64,000 nt of DNA. Source: Bryobacterales bacterium F-183. GTDB taxonomy: Bacteria > Acidobacteriota > Terriglobia > Bryobacterales > Bryobacteraceae. The notes below the pieces were generated by a model. That model made no database searches and was not told the DNA's origin. It saw only the letters and a program-made list of their open reading frames with translations. Positions 31,192 to 47,258 of the stretch are shown piece by piece. How positions within the stretch are numbered: position 1 is the first letter of the stretch; each line of letters starts with the position of its first letter. Location: assembly GCA_016865505.2 (NCBI GenBank), contig AP025252.1:3906001-3970000 (forward strand), written 5' to 3'. The position numbers and the translations under genes are program-made.

Positions 31192-31230
31192 CCCGGAACC
31201 AATAACGCCGGAGCGGTGTCAACAGACCCT

Positions 31231-32172
31231 ATGCGCCTTCTCGCAACACTAGCGTTCCTCTTGTGTCTGCACGGAAGCGCTACGTTCATCCCTTCAGCAC
31301 CATTTCGCGATCGCCCGGAAACATCGGTCAGGCCCATTGCCGACGCGCCGATCTTGCTTGTGGGCAAGATCGTGCAGCAACGCTACGTCAATCGCTTCCA
31401 CCAAAGCATGCGCCTCGCCCGCATCACCGTTCAGGTCGAAAACCTCCTGCGAGGCTCGGTAGACGGCCGCACAACCATCGACTTCTACAATTACGCGCCT
31501 TACTTCCTCGGCACCACAGGACCCGTCAGCTTCCCGCGTACCGGCCGCCGCTACGTCCTGGCGTTGACGCGAGACAAGAGCGGACTGCTTCGCCCCGTAT
31601 GGGACTACTGGGATTCCAGCGAACTCGTCGCCAGTGGCCGCCACCGCACTGTGCCTCTAGACTCCTCGCGGACTGTAGAACAACGCATCGCAACGCTGTT
31701 GCTAACCCCGACAACCGAAGACTTCGATATCGATCTGTTCGCAGCCGAAATGGACGGCAGTGCAGGTTTTGCACGGTTGATCCTCGGCGTCCCTGCCGTG
31801 ATCGCGTTCTATCAGCAGCAGATGAACAGTCCCCATCTGGCAATCCGAATCGCCGCATGCGAGAACCTGACCTCCGACTTCGCCGGCCTGTTCGACTGTT
31901 GGGACCCGGCAACCGTCGGTGACGGATCGCTGCTGTTGCAACGCTACGGGCGCATCCCACCGCAGGTCAGCCGCCGGGCTCATCGCTACCAACAACGCGA
32001 AATAGCGAACCTCGAAGGCATTTGGGCGAGTCGCGCTGCCGCCGGCCGCGTAGATGATTGGGTTGACCAACTTGACGTCTATTCACTAGCGCCAGACGCC
32101 GAGCTACGCCGCCGTGCCTGCCGACTCCTTCGCAAGTACCATCCCAATCGCCCCTCGCCACAGTGCCCCTAG
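31231..32172 (+). CDS. Secreted protein, possible NTR/TIMP-like N-terminal fold
   Basis: 313 aa from ATG 31231, which starts a signal peptide (MRLLATLAFLLCLHGSA). A GTG at 31216 would add 5 residues. The first half has the pattern ILLVGKIVQQ ... RITVQVENLLRGSVDG ... FPRTGRRYVLALTR, similar to the V-G-x-V / V-x-V-x-x-x-x-x-G / G-x-x-Y-L pattern of bacterial NTR-like domains. It lacks the expected cysteines, so this is only a suggestion. The C-terminal half is helical and may hold HEAT-like helices. It ends in a CTAG tetramer shared with the stop of the convergent gene. Confidence 0.6.
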   Translation: MRLLATLAFLLCLHGSATFIPSAPFRDRPETSVRPIADAPILLVGKIVQQRYVNRFHQSMRLARITVQVENLLRGSVDGRTTIDFYNYAPYFLGTTGPVSFPRTGRRYVLALTRDKSGLLRPVWDYWDSSELVASGRHRTVPLDSSRTVEQRIATLLLTPTTEDFDIDLFAAEMDGSAGFARLILGVPAVIAFYQQQMNSPHLAIRIAACENLTSDFAGLFDCWDPATVGDGSLLLQRYGRIPPQVSRRAHRYQQREIANLEGIWASRAAAGRVDDWVDQLDVYSLAPDAELRRRACRLLRKYHPNRPSPQCP

Positions 32173-41376: not shown

Positions 41377-42990
41377 ATGAACAATCTAAGAACCAAGTTT
41401 CTGATCATCCTGGGCACAGTGCTCGTCTGTTTGTACGGCATCATCGGTATCCCGTGGCCCCTTTCCAAGATCCAGGAGAACTGGAACAATAACGTAAAGC
41501 TGGGCCTCGACCTCAAAGGCGGCTCTCAGCTGGTGATGCAGGTGCAGGTGCAGGACGCCTTCAAGGCGGAAGCTGCTTCCTCCGCAGACCGTCTCCGCGA
41601 AGAACTCGCCAAGCGCAACATTGAGTACGCCGGCGTCGACATCAGCGAACCCAAGTCCATTGAAGAAGCCGAAAAGGTAGAAATCCTCTTCCGCGGCGTT
41701 CCGCCCACCAAGTCTGGCGACTTCCGCAAGGCCGGTACCGACATCCTGGGCGACACCTGGGACATCGCCAACACGGGCGCGGATTTCCGCTTCACCATGA
41801 AGCGCACCAACGCCCTCACCCTCCGCAAGGACACCCTGGCGCAGGTTTCGAACACCATCCACCGCAAGATCGACGGTCTCGGCCTCGCCGAATCCACCGT
41901 CCAGCTTCGCGGCAGTGAGCAGGATGCCGAAATCATGGTGCAGCTCCCCGGCGTCGACGACCCGGCCCGCATCAAGGAACTCCTCGGCTCCCGCACCATG
42001 CTCGAATGGGCCGAACTCCAGGAACAGACCCCCTTCCAGTCCCGCGAAGAAGCGCTCGCCCGTAGCGGTGGCATGCTGCCGCTCAACACTCGCCTCGTCA
42101 AGGGTTCCACCCGCGGCGGCGGTCCCGATGTGTACTGGCTCGTCAAGAAGATCCCGGTCGTCACCGGTCGCGACCTTCGCGACGCTCAGCCCCAGCAGAG
42201 CGATCGCGCCGGTTGGGATACGTCTTTCGTTCTCACGCAGGAAGCCGCTCGCCGCTTCGGCTCCTTCACGGGTGCCAACATCGGCAAGCGCGCCGCGATT
42301 ATCCTCGACGACGTCGTCATCAGTGCTCCGGAAATCCAGAGCCAGATCAACGACAGCGGCCGCATCATGGGCGCCGCCTCCCAGCAGGAAGCCGCCGACC
42401 TCGCGCTCAACCTCCGCGCAGGTGCGCTGCCCGCCTCCGTGCTCTTCCTCGAAGAGCGCTCGGTTGGCCCGTCGCTCGGTGCAGACTCAATCCAGAGCGG
42501 TCTGCTCGCCGGCATGGTGGGTATTGGCGCGGTCGTCCTCGTGATGCTCGTTTACTACAAGAAGGCCGGCATCAACGCCGTCATCGCGCTCGTATTGAAC
42601 GCCATCATCCTGCTCGCTCTCCTCGCCTACTTTGGCGCTGTGCTGACCCTGCCGGGAATCGCTGGCTTCATTCTCACCATCGGTATGGCCGTGGACTCCA
42701 ACGTCCTCATCTTCGAGCGTATCCGCGAAGAGTTGAAGTCCGGCAAGAGCGCCGTCGCCGCCATCCAGGCGGGCTTCGGAAAGGCCTGGTGGACCATCGT
42801 CGACACCCACGTGACGACGGTCGTTTCCTGTGCATTTCTCTTCGTTTTCGGCTCCCCGCAAATTAGGGGATTCGCCGTAACGCTCGTCATCGGTCTTCTG
42901 GCCAATGTTTTCACCGCCGTTTTCGTCTCCAAAGCGATCTTCGATTGGGAAATGGCAGGCAAGAAAAACGTCGAAAGTCTGAGCATCTAA
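41377..42990 (+). CDS. secD: Protein translocase subunit SecD
   Basis: 537 aa with one N-terminal helix, a large periplasmic domain (GLDLKGGSQLVMQV at about 46-59, the P1 domain) and five C-terminal helices. Conserved motifs are GRDLRDA, NIGKRAAIILDDVVISAP and GMAVDSNVLIFERIREEL, the proton-relay segment. With SecF it uses the proton gradient to pull preproteins through SecYEG. It is separated from secF by an unusually long 242-base gap. Confidence 0.97.
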   Translation: MNNLRTKFLIILGTVLVCLYGIIGIPWPLSKIQENWNNNVKLGLDLKGGSQLVMQVQVQDAFKAEAASSADRLREELAKRNIEYAGVDISEPKSIEEAEKVEILFRGVPPTKSGDFRKAGTDILGDTWDIANTGADFRFTMKRTNALTLRKDTLAQVSNTIHRKIDGLGLAESTVQLRGSEQDAEIMVQLPGVDDPARIKELLGSRTMLEWAELQEQTPFQSREEALARSGGMLPLNTRLVKGSTRGGGPDVYWLVKKIPVVTGRDLRDAQPQQSDRAGWDTSFVLTQEAARRFGSFTGANIGKRAAIILDDVVISAPEIQSQINDSGRIMGAASQQEAADLALNLRAGALPASVLFLEERSVGPSLGADSIQSGLLAGMVGIGAVVLVMLVYYKKAGINAVIALVLNAIILLALLAYFGAVLTLPGIAGFILTIGMAVDSNVLIFERIREELKSGKSAVAAIQAGFGKAWWTIVDTHVTTVVSCAFLFVFGSPQIRGFAVTLVIGLLANVFTAVFVSKAIFDWEMAGKKNVESLSI

Positions 42991-43011
42991 GCTCTTATAA
43001 ATCAACGCCTT

Positions 43012-43109
43012 GGGGCGGGTTTGCAAAAAGTACTGAAAATGTTTTGGTACTTCATGCATGTGGAGTGTTTGAACCCGCCCCGGCTTATGTGATACAGTCT
43101 CAAACACTC
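43012..43109 (+). ncRNA. Candidate structured RNA (H-type pseudoknot) in the secD-secF gap
   Basis: Stem A: GGGGCGGGTT (43012-43021) pairs perfectly with AACCCGCCCC (43072-43081). Stem B: GAGTGTTTGA (43063-43072) pairs perfectly with TCAAACACTC (43100-43109). The left arm of B lies in the loop of A and directly abuts (shares one base with) the right arm of A, so the two stems stack as in an H-type pseudoknot. The first loop holds its own hairpin, TGCA (43022-43025)/TGCA (43055-43058) plus AAGTAC (43028-43033)/GTACTT (43047-43052). ACTCT/AGAGT (43106-43110, 43116-43120) forms a hairpin that competes with stem B. No U-run follows, so it is not a simple terminator. It could be a cis-regulatory RNA for secF; no known family recognised. 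Confidence 0.5.
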
Positions 43110-43136
43110 TCGTAAAGAGTCAGGAACAAATAGGGT

Positions 43137-43223
43137 GACACCGGTGTCCAAGTCAATCAGGAGCTTCTCTTACCGGAACTCCTGCCAAGTCGAGGTAGCA
43201 AGACCCTAGTCCCTACCGGTGTC
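43137..43223 (+). promoter_or_regulatory. Second inverted-repeat element just upstream of secF
   Basis: GACACCGGT (43137-43145) pairs with ACCGGTGTC (43215-43223), enclosing a hairpin CAGGAG (43158-43163)/CTCCTG (43179-43184). The left arm is also part of a 12-base palindrome GACACCGGTGTC (43137-43148), so it can alternatively fold on itself. The heptamer CCAAGTC is repeated at 43148-43154 and 43185-43191. The outer stem ends 9 bases before the secF ATG, where no Shine-Dalgarno sequence is visible, so it may control initiation at secF. Confidence 0.45.
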
Positions 43224-43232
43224 GTTTGCAGT

Positions 43233-44465
43233 ATGGAAATCTTCAAGAATACTAACTTCGACTTTTTGGGCAAGAAATGGCCCTTCATCATCGCCTCGTT
43301 GCTGTTGACGTTGGCGGGCATCGGCAGCTTGATCGCCAAGGGCGGTCCACGCTACGGAATCGATTTCCGCGGCGGCGTGCTGATGTACGTCCGCTTCAAC
43401 GCCGAGCCGCCAGAGGATAAGATCCGCCAGGCCCTGCAGGCAAAGATTCCGGGTGAGGTGATCATCCAGCGTATTTCGGGAACGAATGAAGTCATCGTTT
43501 CCACTGAGCTGTCCCAGGACGAGCGCGCCCAGAGCGAAAACCGCCAGAAGATGCAGGACATCTTCGCGGCCACCTTCGGGCAGGCCAACGGCAAGAAGGA
43601 CTTCCACAACAGCAGCGCAGAAGATCTGTTGAACATCCTTCGCCCCGCTCCCACCGGGCTCACTGGCCCGCAGCTGCAGGAAGTGGTGCAGACGATTCTG
43701 GACTACCGCAACAAGCCGCCACGTTCGGGCCTCATCGGCTCGCTCGATGAGCTGGGCTCGCTGCAGGGTGTCACTCCGGTGATTCTGAACACTCTGAAGG
43801 AGCAGACGTATCTGTCGCCCTTCGCGATTCGCAATATTGAAGTAGTCGGTCCGAAGGTCGGCAAGGAATTGCAGACCAAGGCGCTCAACGCCACGCTGCT
43901 CGCCCTTGGCGGTATGCTGATCTACATCGCATTCCGCTTCGAATGGATGTACGGCGTCGCTGCGGTGATCGCGGTCCTCCACGACACGATCATTACTATC
44001 GGCATCTTCTCGCTGGCCAATAAGGAAATTTCGCTCACGGTAATCGCAGCGCTCCTTACCCTGGTCGGTTATTCGATGAACGACACCATCGTGGTGTTCG
44101 ATCGAATTCGCGAGAATATGCGCGGTATTCGCTCCAAATCGGATTTCGACACCCTGGTAAATACCAGTATTAATCAGACTTTGAGCCGGACCATCCTAAC
44201 GTCCGGTCTGACGTTCCTGACCGCCCTCGCTCTCTGGATTTTTGGCGGAGAAGTGCTCAACGGCTTTTCCTTCGCCCTGGTCGTGGGTATCATAGTCGGA
44301 ACGTTCTCTTCAGTCTTTATCGCAAGCCCGATTCTGATCTTCCTCCGTGACTGGTCGGAAGCCCGGAAAAAGGCGCAGACCCCAGCCGCAGCAGCGGCTG
44401 CCAGCCGTGCCCCACAAGTGGAAACGGCAAGTGCGAAGAAGTTGGCGGGTGGCCGGACCAAATAA
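43233..44465 (+). CDS. secF: Protein translocase subunit SecF
   Basis: 410 aa. SecF signature: FLGKKWPFIIAS in the first helix, YGIDFRGGVLMYVRF, then the C-terminal helix bundle with AVIAVLHDTIITIGIF, GYSMNDTIVVFDRIREN and LSRTILTSGLTFLTAL. The loop between residues 70 and 200 is longer than in E. coli SecF. Its C-terminus is Ala-rich and basic (KKLAGGRTK). The start ATG follows a structured leader without an evident ribosome-binding site. Confidence 0.96.
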   Translation: MEIFKNTNFDFLGKKWPFIIASLLLTLAGIGSLIAKGGPRYGIDFRGGVLMYVRFNAEPPEDKIRQALQAKIPGEVIIQRISGTNEVIVSTELSQDERAQSENRQKMQDIFAATFGQANGKKDFHNSSAEDLLNILRPAPTGLTGPQLQEVVQTILDYRNKPPRSGLIGSLDELGSLQGVTPVILNTLKEQTYLSPFAIRNIEVVGPKVGKELQTKALNATLLALGGMLIYIAFRFEWMYGVAAVIAVLHDTIITIGIFSLANKEISLTVIAALLTLVGYSMNDTIVVFDRIRENMRGIRSKSDFDTLVNTSINQTLSRTILTSGLTFLTALALWIFGGEVLNGFSFALVVGIIVGTFSSVFIASPILIFLRDWSEARKKAQTPAAAAAASRAPQVETASAKKLAGGRTK

Positions 44466-44550
44466 CCGTGAGGCTGCCGGCCCGCCTCAGTTCGTGTGTG
44501 TTTCGTGAGTTCAACCATGCCCAACTGTGGGTCATGAAAGGATTCGAATT

Positions 44551-45318
44551 ATGTTCGATCAGACTTTCGTAAATGACGACGGCAAGACTAATAAAAGCTG
44601 GACCGTCCTTGTATCGACGTTGATGCAATGCGGCCTGGTCGGTGTTGCCATCCTCATTCCGTTGATTTTTACCGACGCTCTACCCCAGACAAGTCTCACG
44701 GCTTCTCTGATGGCGCCTCCGCCGCCGCCTCCTCCGCCCCCGCCGCCTCCTGCCACGCCGCAACCGGTAAAGGTCGTCAAGACCGCGCCCCGGCAGTTTA
44801 ACAACAACATGCTAGTGGCGCCCAAGAAGATCCCGAAAGAGATCGCGATGATCAAGGAAGATGATCTGCCTCCGCCCGCCGCTGCGTCGGGTGTCGTTGG
44901 TGGCGTCCCCGGCGGCGTGCCGGGTGGCACCGCTGGCGGCATCATCGGCGGTGTCATGGGTGGCGTTCCTTCCGCGGCTCCTCCGCCTCCTCCGCCCCCG
45001 GTGAAGGTCGAAAAGCCGAAGGCCCCCGAACGTATCCGCGTCGGTGGTAACGTGCAAGCCGCCAACCTGATTAAGCGCGTAACGCCGCAGTACCCCCCGC
45101 TCGCCAAGCAGGCGCGCGTGTCCGGTACCGTGCGCTTTACCGCCGTCATCGGCAAGGACGGTACGATTCAGAACCTGCAGATGATTAGCGGTCACCCGCT
45201 GCTCGTCCAGGCTGCCACCGAAGCTGTTCGTCAGTGGGTCTACAAGCCCACCCTGCTGAACAACGAACCGGTGGAAGTGATCACGCAGATCGACGTCAAT
45301 TTCACGCTGAGCAGCTAA
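44551..45318 (+). CDS. TonB-type energy transducer
   Basis: 255 aa. One N-terminal helix (about 21-40), a run of 12 prolines (56-67), a central Gly/Val/Pro repeat (VVGGVPGGVPGGTAGGIIGG), a second proline run, and a C-terminal TonB domain (RVTPQYPPLAKQARVSGTVRF ... AVRQWVYKPTLLNNEPVEV). TonB couples the ExbBD proton motor to outer-membrane receptors. The ATG at 44551 follows an AAAGGA site. The exbB-exbD-exbD-TPR genes follow in order. Confidence 0.9.
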   Translation: MFDQTFVNDDGKTNKSWTVLVSTLMQCGLVGVAILIPLIFTDALPQTSLTASLMAPPPPPPPPPPPPATPQPVKVVKTAPRQFNNNMLVAPKKIPKEIAMIKEDDLPPPAAASGVVGGVPGGVPGGTAGGIIGGVMGGVPSAAPPPPPPPVKVEKPKAPERIRVGGNVQAANLIKRVTPQYPPLAKQARVSGTVRFTAVIGKDGTIQNLQMISGHPLLVQAATEAVRQWVYKPTLLNNEPVEVITQIDVNFTLSS

Positions 45319-45464: not shown

Positions 45465-46190
45465 ATGTTTCTACAGATGCAAGTATGGGGCTTCCTCTTC
45501 CTCCAGGAAGTCAGCTTCGACCCGCTCAGCATGTGGCACCACATGGGCGCAATCGATAAGGGTATCGTGCTGCTCATGTTCTTCATGTCCGCGTGGTCCA
45601 TCGGCGTGATGATCGATCGCTACATCGCCTTCAACGCCGCCCGCAACCAGTCCCGTCAGTTCGCTCCGGCTGTCGCTGGCGCGCTCAAGAACGGCAACCT
45701 CGACGAAGCCATCAAGGTGGCTGACCGCTTCAACAAGAGCCACCTGGCCAAGGTAGTTGTGGCCGGCCTGCAGGAATTCAAGGCTCACCAGGCGAACAAC
45801 GAAATCTCCGGTGAAACCATCGAAGCCTCCAAGCGCGCTCTCGAACGCGCTGAAGCCATCGTTCACGCCGAATTGAAGCGCGGTATCCCGAGCTTGGCGA
45901 CCATCGGTTCTTCGGCTCCGTTCGTCGGACTGCTCGGCACCGTCGTCGGCATCATCAACGCGTTCCGCGGCATCGCAACGGAAAAGGCCACTGGTCTTGC
46001 CGCTGTCGCCGGCGGTATTTCGGAAGCCCTGGTCACCACGGCCGTGGGTCTCGTCGCCGCTATCCCTGCCGTCTGGGCCTACAACTACTTCTCGAACCGC
46101 CTCGAGTCGTTCGACGTGGAAATGGGCAACTCCAGCTCGGAACTGATCGACTACTTCATCAAGCGCAGCCAGAAGCTGGCCGCGAAGTAA
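45465..46190 (+). CDS. exbB: ExbB/TolQ/MotA-family proton channel protein
   Basis: 241 aa with three helices: about 25-45, 142-165 (LATIGSSAPFVGLLGTVVGIINAF) and 180-205 (GGISEALVTTAVGLVAAIPAVWAYNYF). The TxG(L)xGTVxG and P-x-x-A features match ExbB/TolQ. It forms the pentameric ring around ExbD. An AGGAGA site precedes the ATG. A strong hairpin lies between it and exbD. Confidence 0.93.
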   Translation: MFLQMQVWGFLFLQEVSFDPLSMWHHMGAIDKGIVLLMFFMSAWSIGVMIDRYIAFNAARNQSRQFAPAVAGALKNGNLDEAIKVADRFNKSHLAKVVVAGLQEFKAHQANNEISGETIEASKRALERAEAIVHAELKRGIPSLATIGSSAPFVGLLGTVVGIINAFRGIATEKATGLAAVAGGISEALVTTAVGLVAAIPAVWAYNYFSNRLESFDVEMGNSSSELIDYFIKRSQKLAAK

Positions 46191-46326: not shown

Positions 46327-46758
<432 letters not shown>

Positions 46759-46829
46759 GCGTTCGGTCCGCTTCATCAAGTGTCATAACGCGCCCGGGAC
46801 AAGGAAAATAACAGGAGCTAAGCAATCTT

Positions 46830-47258
46830 ATGGCAATGGCACTCGGCGGTTCGGGAGGACCGAAAGCCGAAATTAACGTAACGCCGCTCATCGACGTCTT
46901 GCTCGTGCTCATCATCATCTTCATGGTGATCACGCCCACGACGCCCAAGGGCCTGGAGGCGCTGGCGCCTCAACCCCCACCTCCCAATCAGCCGCCTCCG
47001 CCAGACAATCAGGACCGCACGGTGGTCATCATCATCGAAGCCGACAAGAGCATCAAGCTCAACACCGAAGATGTCACCGAAGCCAACCTCGGCAAGCGTC
47101 TTGAGGACATCTTCAAGACTCGTGCGGAGCGCGTTGTGTTCGTCAAGGGCGACCCGAACCTCGAATACCAGTACGTGGCCAAGGCGATCGACGTCGCCAA
47201 GGGCGTCGGCATCGACAAAGTCGGGTTGATGACGCCGAAGGTCGAAGCGGGCCAATAA
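46830..47258 (+). CDS. ExbD/TolR biopolymer transport protein (second copy)
   Basis: 142 aa. Same helix signature, AEINVTPLIDVLLVLIIIFMVITPTT, but with a Pro-rich linker (PQPPPPNQPPPPDNQD) before the periplasmic domain. The two-ExbD arrangement is known from several phyla. A ribosome-binding AGGAGC lies 15 bases upstream. The TPR lipoprotein gene starts 12 bases after its stop. Confidence 0.92.
   Translation: MAMALGGSGGPKAEINVTPLIDVLLVLIIIFMVITPTTPKGLEALAPQPPPPNQPPPPDNQDRTVVIIIEADKSIKLNTEDVTEANLGKRLEDIFKTRAERVVFVKGDPNLEYQYVAKAIDVAKGVGIDKVGLMTPKVEAGQ

Follow-up and report, generated by a model that had tools for sequence, protein, structure and literature searches.

In the window analysed here, which is the whole stretch of 64,000 nt taken from contig AP025252.1 of Bryobacterales bacterium F-183, secD and secF lie on the same strand and are followed by genes resembling tonB, exbB and exbD (Table 1; all positions are those of the window). 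The original prediction had given the gap between secD and secF as 242 bases, and this is right: the gap runs from 42991 to 43232, and both flanking genes are named by NCBIfam models above cut-off. The order of genes around the gap is conserved, with yajC before secD in 69/69 eligible loci of the bacterial order and the genes after secF retained as listed in the table.

Table 1. Features of the secD-secF region, with window coordinates and the basis of each call.
Feature	Position	Strand	Basis
secD	41377..42990	+	NCBIfam TIGR01129 above cut-off
S1 with a hairpin in its loop	43012..43081	+	Between secD and the promoters; two genomes; folding z -4.2 upstream of GGAAC
S2 inverted repeat	43063..43109	+	Covers the sigma-70-type -35 and ends just past the -10; 0/78 other gaps
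Predicted sigma-70-type promoter	43069..43098	+	-35 TTGAAC 43069-43074, 18-nt spacer, TGTGA, -10 TACAGT 43093-43098
Predicted ECF-sigma (RpoE-type) promoter of secF	43123..43151	+	-35 GGAAC 43123-43127, -10 region TGTCCAA 43145-43151
secF-leader hairpin, 5' arm	43137..43145	+	Overlaps the ECF -10; pairs with 43215-43223
secF-leader hairpin, 3' arm	43215..43223	+	The secF ATG follows 15 nt after the partner of the first core G
secF, at the head of the proposed ECF-driven unit	43233..44465	+	NCBIfam TIGR00966 above cut-off
tonB-like gene	44527..45318	+	Pfam TonB_C above cut-off; 71/71 eligible loci
exbB-like gene	45465..46190	+	Pfam MotA_ExbB; 67/67 eligible loci
Two exbD-like genes	46327..47258 (46327-46758, 46830-47258)	+	Pfam ExbD for both; first in 64/64 eligible loci

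The gap had been proposed to hold two perfect 10-bp stems, S1 (43012-43021 with 43072-43081) and S2 (43063-43072 with 43100-43109), and both are exact, as is the competing hairpin at 43106-43120 (ACTCT-CGTAA-AGAGT). The stems do stand in the ABAB order of an H-type pseudoknot; however, base 43072 is common to both, and because of this S1 and S2 cannot both be complete at once. A scan for G+C-rich stems followed by a U run found no terminator-like site in 42800-43400, which agrees with the exclusion of a simple terminator, and the earlier impression by eye that no known RNA family fits was borne out by an Rfam search of 42700-43500, in which only chance-level matches appeared (lowest E 0.29, with 18 bits where the gathering threshold is 70). 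That the candidate RNA might be a dispersed repeat was ruled out, the genome having one full-length copy; the six other matches to the gap sequence within it are each 15-22 bases long.

Two 10-bp stems in ABAB order were seen in 0/5000 dinucleotide shuffles of the gap, and are thus rarer than chance, and any 10-bp stem was seen in 95/5000, both figures being uncorrected for the original choice of this gap among the window's 260 or so stretches of that size. Compared with shuffled sequence, the 132 nt preceding the GGAAC box folded better (z -4.2), the whole of 42985-43240 gave z -1.96, and 43105-43260 gave z 0.47, so that the excess of folding sits upstream of GGAAC instead. A second ABAB order was noted by eye where 43131-43145 meets 43204-43223 (TAGGGT/ACCCTA together with GACACCGGT/ACCGGTGTC), and it was also found by script in the congener described below.

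The gap was compared with those of secF relatives, of which the best 80 of 449 were kept. One relative (L047) was dropped since it had no usable secD end, and 80 readable gaps of 66 to 245 nt, the window's own included, make up the set. The genus is represented by two genomes, the window's own and that of one congener (L008, the same contig as L089). Within this best-80 set, both arms of S2 were found with at most two mismatches in 0/78 other gaps, and both arms of S1, searched as loosely, in 3/78. The original prediction had named conservation or covariation of the arms among relatives as its check, and by that check the arms are not conserved beyond the genus. Between the congener and the window 22 columns of the gap differ, with one change in the predicted arms and none in 43063-43110, which holds the sigma-70-type promoter region, or in 43116-43174 around the ECF boxes. 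In the nested upstream structure 3/32 pairs differ and 3/3 remain standard pairs; the pair 43022-43058 goes from U-A to C-G, the sole double change, and immediately outside S2 a G-U pair is replaced by A-U. For the combined S1 and S2 structure, all four changed stem pairs are still standard (one double change, three one-sided). Since the pairs are kept in the congener, it is plausible that the genus shares an upstream structure. Among the 49 non-redundant gaps that carry the GGAAC motif, 7-bp stems in ABAB order were present in 5, the window's own included, where 1.1 would be expected, and the other four gaps had no layout in common with the window.

These observations bear on the explanation from which the work departed, that a genus-specific pseudoknotted regulatory RNA made of S1 and S2, carried in secD read-through RNA, controls secF. 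The rarity of its stems among shuffles, the upstream folding, the retained pairs of the congener with their one double change and the excess of 7-bp ABAB stems all speak for it, and known H-type pseudoknot cis-regulatory RNAs have the same ABAB order of stems as the window and its congener. Unlike those, the structure here has no Rfam match and is not conserved beyond the genus. The near absence of the arms elsewhere and the missing common layout, the base claimed by both stems, the fact that transcripts started at the predicted promoters would not contain S1, and the presence of a widely found sigma-70-type promoter beneath S2 and the 3' arm of S1 make this explanation unlikely. The broader claim that the gap regulates secF has fared better: secF is probably controlled apart from secD, with envelope or secretion stress a likely input, but the agent differs, the widely conserved parts of the gap being two predicted promoters and not a pseudoknotted RNA that senses a ligand.

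The upstream one is a predicted sigma-70-type promoter, and the positions of its TTGAAC and TACAGT elements place S2 and the 3' arm of S1 over it. Its TGTGRTA element occurs in 51/80 gaps of the best 80 of 449 relatives when the last 20 nt of secD are counted in, with 0.01 expected per 150 bp, and a TTGA-like -35 stands above it in most of these 51, as judged by eye, sometimes within the end of secD. A strict consensus scan did not call the promoter at 43069-43098. Four relatives with 66-nt gaps (L064, L079, L082 and L086) are without the ECF site and keep the sigma-70-type TGTGATA; a G-rich hairpin follows it in these four, with arms that seem to co-vary by eye.

The downstream promoter begins, at its -35, 25 nt below the sigma-70-type -10. 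The distance from GGAAC to TGTC was exactly 22 in 70 of the 80 gaps from the best 80 of 449 relatives and 21 in one; the other nine were without the motif, and one of these (L012) reads GGCGTC at that place. The spacer is rigid in length and variable in sequence, and this fixed distance with free intervening sequence is promoter-like. Neither box is perfect in the window itself, where they read GGAACAA and GTCCAA. Outside the gaps, the same distance was found at 15 sites in 1.10 Mb on both strands, 11 of them within secF and four, by position, just before tonB. In L073, L076, L078 and L084, a GGAAC-N17-TGTC site about 1220 nt past the secF start directly precedes the ATG of the next gene, which by position is tonB. 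Two relatives with titles that look wrong, L081 (Bordetella parapertussis) and L058 (a Phycisphaerae MAG), also contain the GGAAC element, and their secF is 58% and 62% identical to that of the window, respectively.

Across the class, 118 secF matches were found in 114/121 genomes and 88 of them were read; excluded were 27 that were fragmentary or started at query residue 182 or later (mostly from families f5 and f11), along with two second copies and a match at the end of a contig. Fourteen of the 88 had no readable secF start, and the remaining 74 loci, a few with approximate start codons, represent 73 genomes. The strict motif occurs within 260 nt upstream of secF in 56/74 of these loci and is absent from 18. 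By family, it was found in 17/21 loci of the window's own family (f1), 19/19 of f6, 5/8 of f7, 5/6 of f8, 6/8 of f9, 3/3 of f10 and 1/1 of f12, and in none of the readable loci of f11 (0/6), f4 (0/1) or f13 (0/1). The own-family loci overlap the 80 gaps, so the two sets are not independent. Looser motif searches gave no clear spacing signal among the matches listed. Counted over three whole genomes, the ECF spacing was mildly enriched: it had 23 sites, compared with 6 to 20 for nine other spacings, and several of these 23 are intragenic and chance-like. In seven genomes the strict form GGGAAC..GTGTCTA occurred between 0 and 2 times each, with 4/6 of the sites at secF.

Nineteen sites of the motif form were fetched with their surroundings in three genomes. 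In every one of them an RpoE-like ECF sigma gene and a TonB_C gene were each preceded by one site, and the genes behind the fetched sites pointed to an ECF regulon. The sigma protein (L133:498-1220:-) matches Pfam Sigma70_r2, Sigma70_r4_2 and Sigma70_ECF as well as TIGR02937, all above cut-off, and scores 150.5 bits with the RpoE equivalog TIGR02939, below its cut-off of 236.15. Its orthologue is present in 60/61 genomes of the order and 110/121 of the class. A motif of the kind expected for autoregulation precedes the sigma gene in 53/63 loci when weak forms are counted and in 40/63 in strict form: 28/30 own-family loci (20 strict) and 25/33 further loci (20 strict), the latter comprising additional own-family loci (5/5, 3 strict), f11 loci (8/8, all strict) and a set of other families with three more f11 loci among them (12/20, 9 strict). 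Five of the eight loci without it in this last set come from f7, which has six. In f11 (e.g., L270-L277) the sigma gene retains the motif in 8/8 loci and secF is without it in 6/6 readable loci; the secF target seems to have been lost or never gained there. We also considered that the spacer length might change jointly at secF and the sigma gene and dropped the idea, as the distance (21, 22 or 23) was equal in only 4/6 extra-family genomes with both known.

In the window's genome the sigma gene is followed by an ORF of 185 aa (L147:938-1495:-) that matches no Pfam model, contains a hydrophobic stretch and is a candidate anti-sigma factor; a convergent gene for an FKBP-type isomerase (L147:24-860:+) lies beside it. 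Within the window, a GGAAC-N15-GGTGTC site at 31195-31220 stands ahead of ORF 31216-32172, which has no NCBIfam match and whose N-terminus, read by eye, resembles a signal peptide. This site may be another target of that sigma.

The boxes agree with those of sigmaE, given as GGAACTTTT and GTCAAA (PMC1804206). The E. coli and Salmonella RpoE system (sigmaE, ECF02; PMC1804206 and PMC8103513) shares with the system here a -35 of GGAACTT(TT), a -10 starting with GTC, a fixed spacing and a promoter of this kind at the sigma gene itself. The system here differs in that its -10 is mostly GTCTA rather than GTCAAA, its target is secF within the sec cluster, and its sigma factor falls under the RpoE equivalog cut-off. 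The element was not found in the literature searched on ECF promoters, secD/secF or tonB in Acidobacteria and on sigmaE/RpoE with secDF, subscription papers being mostly outside that search.

A leader peptide of the SecM or VemP kind might instead link secretion to secF. VemP-secDF2 and SecM-secA are the precedents of this type, and the gene context fits, in that a regulatory stretch precedes a secretion gene in each. The gap has a 17-codon ATG frame (43039-43092) that is open in both congeners, and short frames are somewhat commoner among gaps than in shuffles (47/55 against 38.7, sd 3.4). The frame encodes MFWYFMHVECLNPPRLM, with three residues changed in the congener. However, this frame is very short and precedes both predicted starts, and no clear ribosome site could be made out by eye. 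In contrast to the VemP and SecM leaders, no conserved leader peptide was found in what was a limited test, and promoters appear to exert the control. We regard a leader peptide as exceedingly improbable.

The secF leader does contain a further paired element, a 9-bp inverted repeat that was absent from the list of stems in the original prediction and whose arms are given in Table 1. In the window's order the -10 GGTGT and the bases preceding it pair with a segment that lies some 15 nt ahead of the secF start, and in the window itself the six flanking pairs all form and enclose a loop of 68 nt. In 45 of 48 non-redundant gaps the partner of the first core G lies 13-18 nt from the secF ATG, within a search range of only 12-19. 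In 48 non-redundant sequences out of 72, a gap's own arms paired better than arms swapped between gaps (z -4.3, 1/20000 permutations). When the register was set by core pairing only and G-U pairs were counted, the flanking pairs x1 and x2 scored above shuffles, 210 and 21 of 5000 of which reached the observed value, whereas x3-x6 did not. A stronger result came from the register 12-19 nt before the ATG with Watson-Crick pairs only, a restriction and a way of counting adopted after the first result was known: for x1-x3 just 47, 21 and 6 of 5000 shuffles reached the observed value, and x4-x6 showed no excess. None of the shuffles of the hairpin, those of the alignment below included, corrects for the relatedness of the sequences.

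An alignment of the hairpin was made from 40 of the 48 sequences, the longer leaders and the window being left out. In it the share of paired cells was 80.1%, compared with 76.7% after shuffling, and the covariation score was 0.245 against 0.192 when shuffled (0/500 as high), the best slid version scoring 0.147. Both sides were changed in 15 cells, a number reached in 0/500 shuffles. Pairs with any double change showed no excess (3 against 2.6 in shuffles), RNAalifold predicted no structure, and on a secF tree 13 double changes were counted against 3-13 in slid controls, omitting the degenerate slide of -1 (51). The swap test was null for 34 non-redundant secF promoters outside the family (z 0.20) and for 20 sigma-gene promoters (z 0.26). 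Because it was null elsewhere, we assign the hairpin, which is probably real, to the secF leader of this order and not to the promoter as such.

The same repeat could be read without any RNA, as a DNA operator for a repressor. The repeat covers the -10 and the expected start, which is a common place for an operator. The arms nevertheless change together between species, in the 15 cells just described, and this would be unusual for one fixed operator; an operator is an improbable account of the repeat. The opposite reading would make the whole GGAAC/GGTGTC element an RNA motif of the secF leader rather than a promoter. The rarity of the strict motif and its location at secF were first taken as pointing that way, and the covarying hairpin of the window's order begins at the second half of the element. 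Against this, the spacing is rigid with a free spacer sequence, the same motif stands ahead of the ECF sigma gene and tonB, pairing is null at secF promoters outside the family and at sigma-gene promoters, and the boxes agree with those published for sigmaE (PMC1804206). An RNA motif is consequently a very unlikely identity for the element.

We conclude that the gap is most likely a promoter region, in which a predicted ECF-sigma promoter heads a secF-tonB-exbB-exbD unit within the yajC-secD-secF cluster, and we place the probability of this reading at roughly 0.84. The sequence shows the motif, its rigid spacing, its spread, its occurrence at the sigma gene and the gene order, and the conserved order of tonB, exbB and exbD after secF is the reason that the promoter would head such a unit. 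From these we infer the binding sigma, the start sites, the signal and the transcription unit as follows. Basal transcription of secF would come from the sigma-70-type promoter, and an RpoE-like ECF sigma would read the second promoter and, in most families, activate its own gene too. Envelope stress would then lead to more secF and tonB-exbB-exbD, with secD not raised. The ECF 5' end would be expected about 5-9 nt below the TGTCCAA box/GGTGTCTA.

Any effect of the hairpin would depend on where transcripts begin. RNAs from the upstream promoter or from secD read-through would hold the whole hairpin and those started at the ECF promoter would be without its 5' arm; as this arm sits above the expected ECF start, only the longer RNAs could form the hairpin, and translation may differ between the two. 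The hairpin, if it acts, may repress translation. A promoter-coded switch can be proposed tentatively on this basis, although we think it rather unlikely: one stretch would serve both as the -10 of the stress promoter and as an arm of the hairpin by the secF start, the long RNAs would fold and translate secF poorly, and the stress RNAs would start in the loop and translate well. If this were true, the choice of promoter would set translation as well as transcription, and a hairpin over the -10 would join the two levels of control compactly.

The ECF promoter reading itself predicts a stress regulon for a large and mostly uncultured soil group (Acidobacteriota, class Terriglobia), in which an RpoE-like ECF sigma would control itself, secF and TonB genes. 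It suggests an excess of SecF over SecD under stress and a tie to the TonB energy system, and may offer a lead on a role of SecF besides its joint work with SecD.
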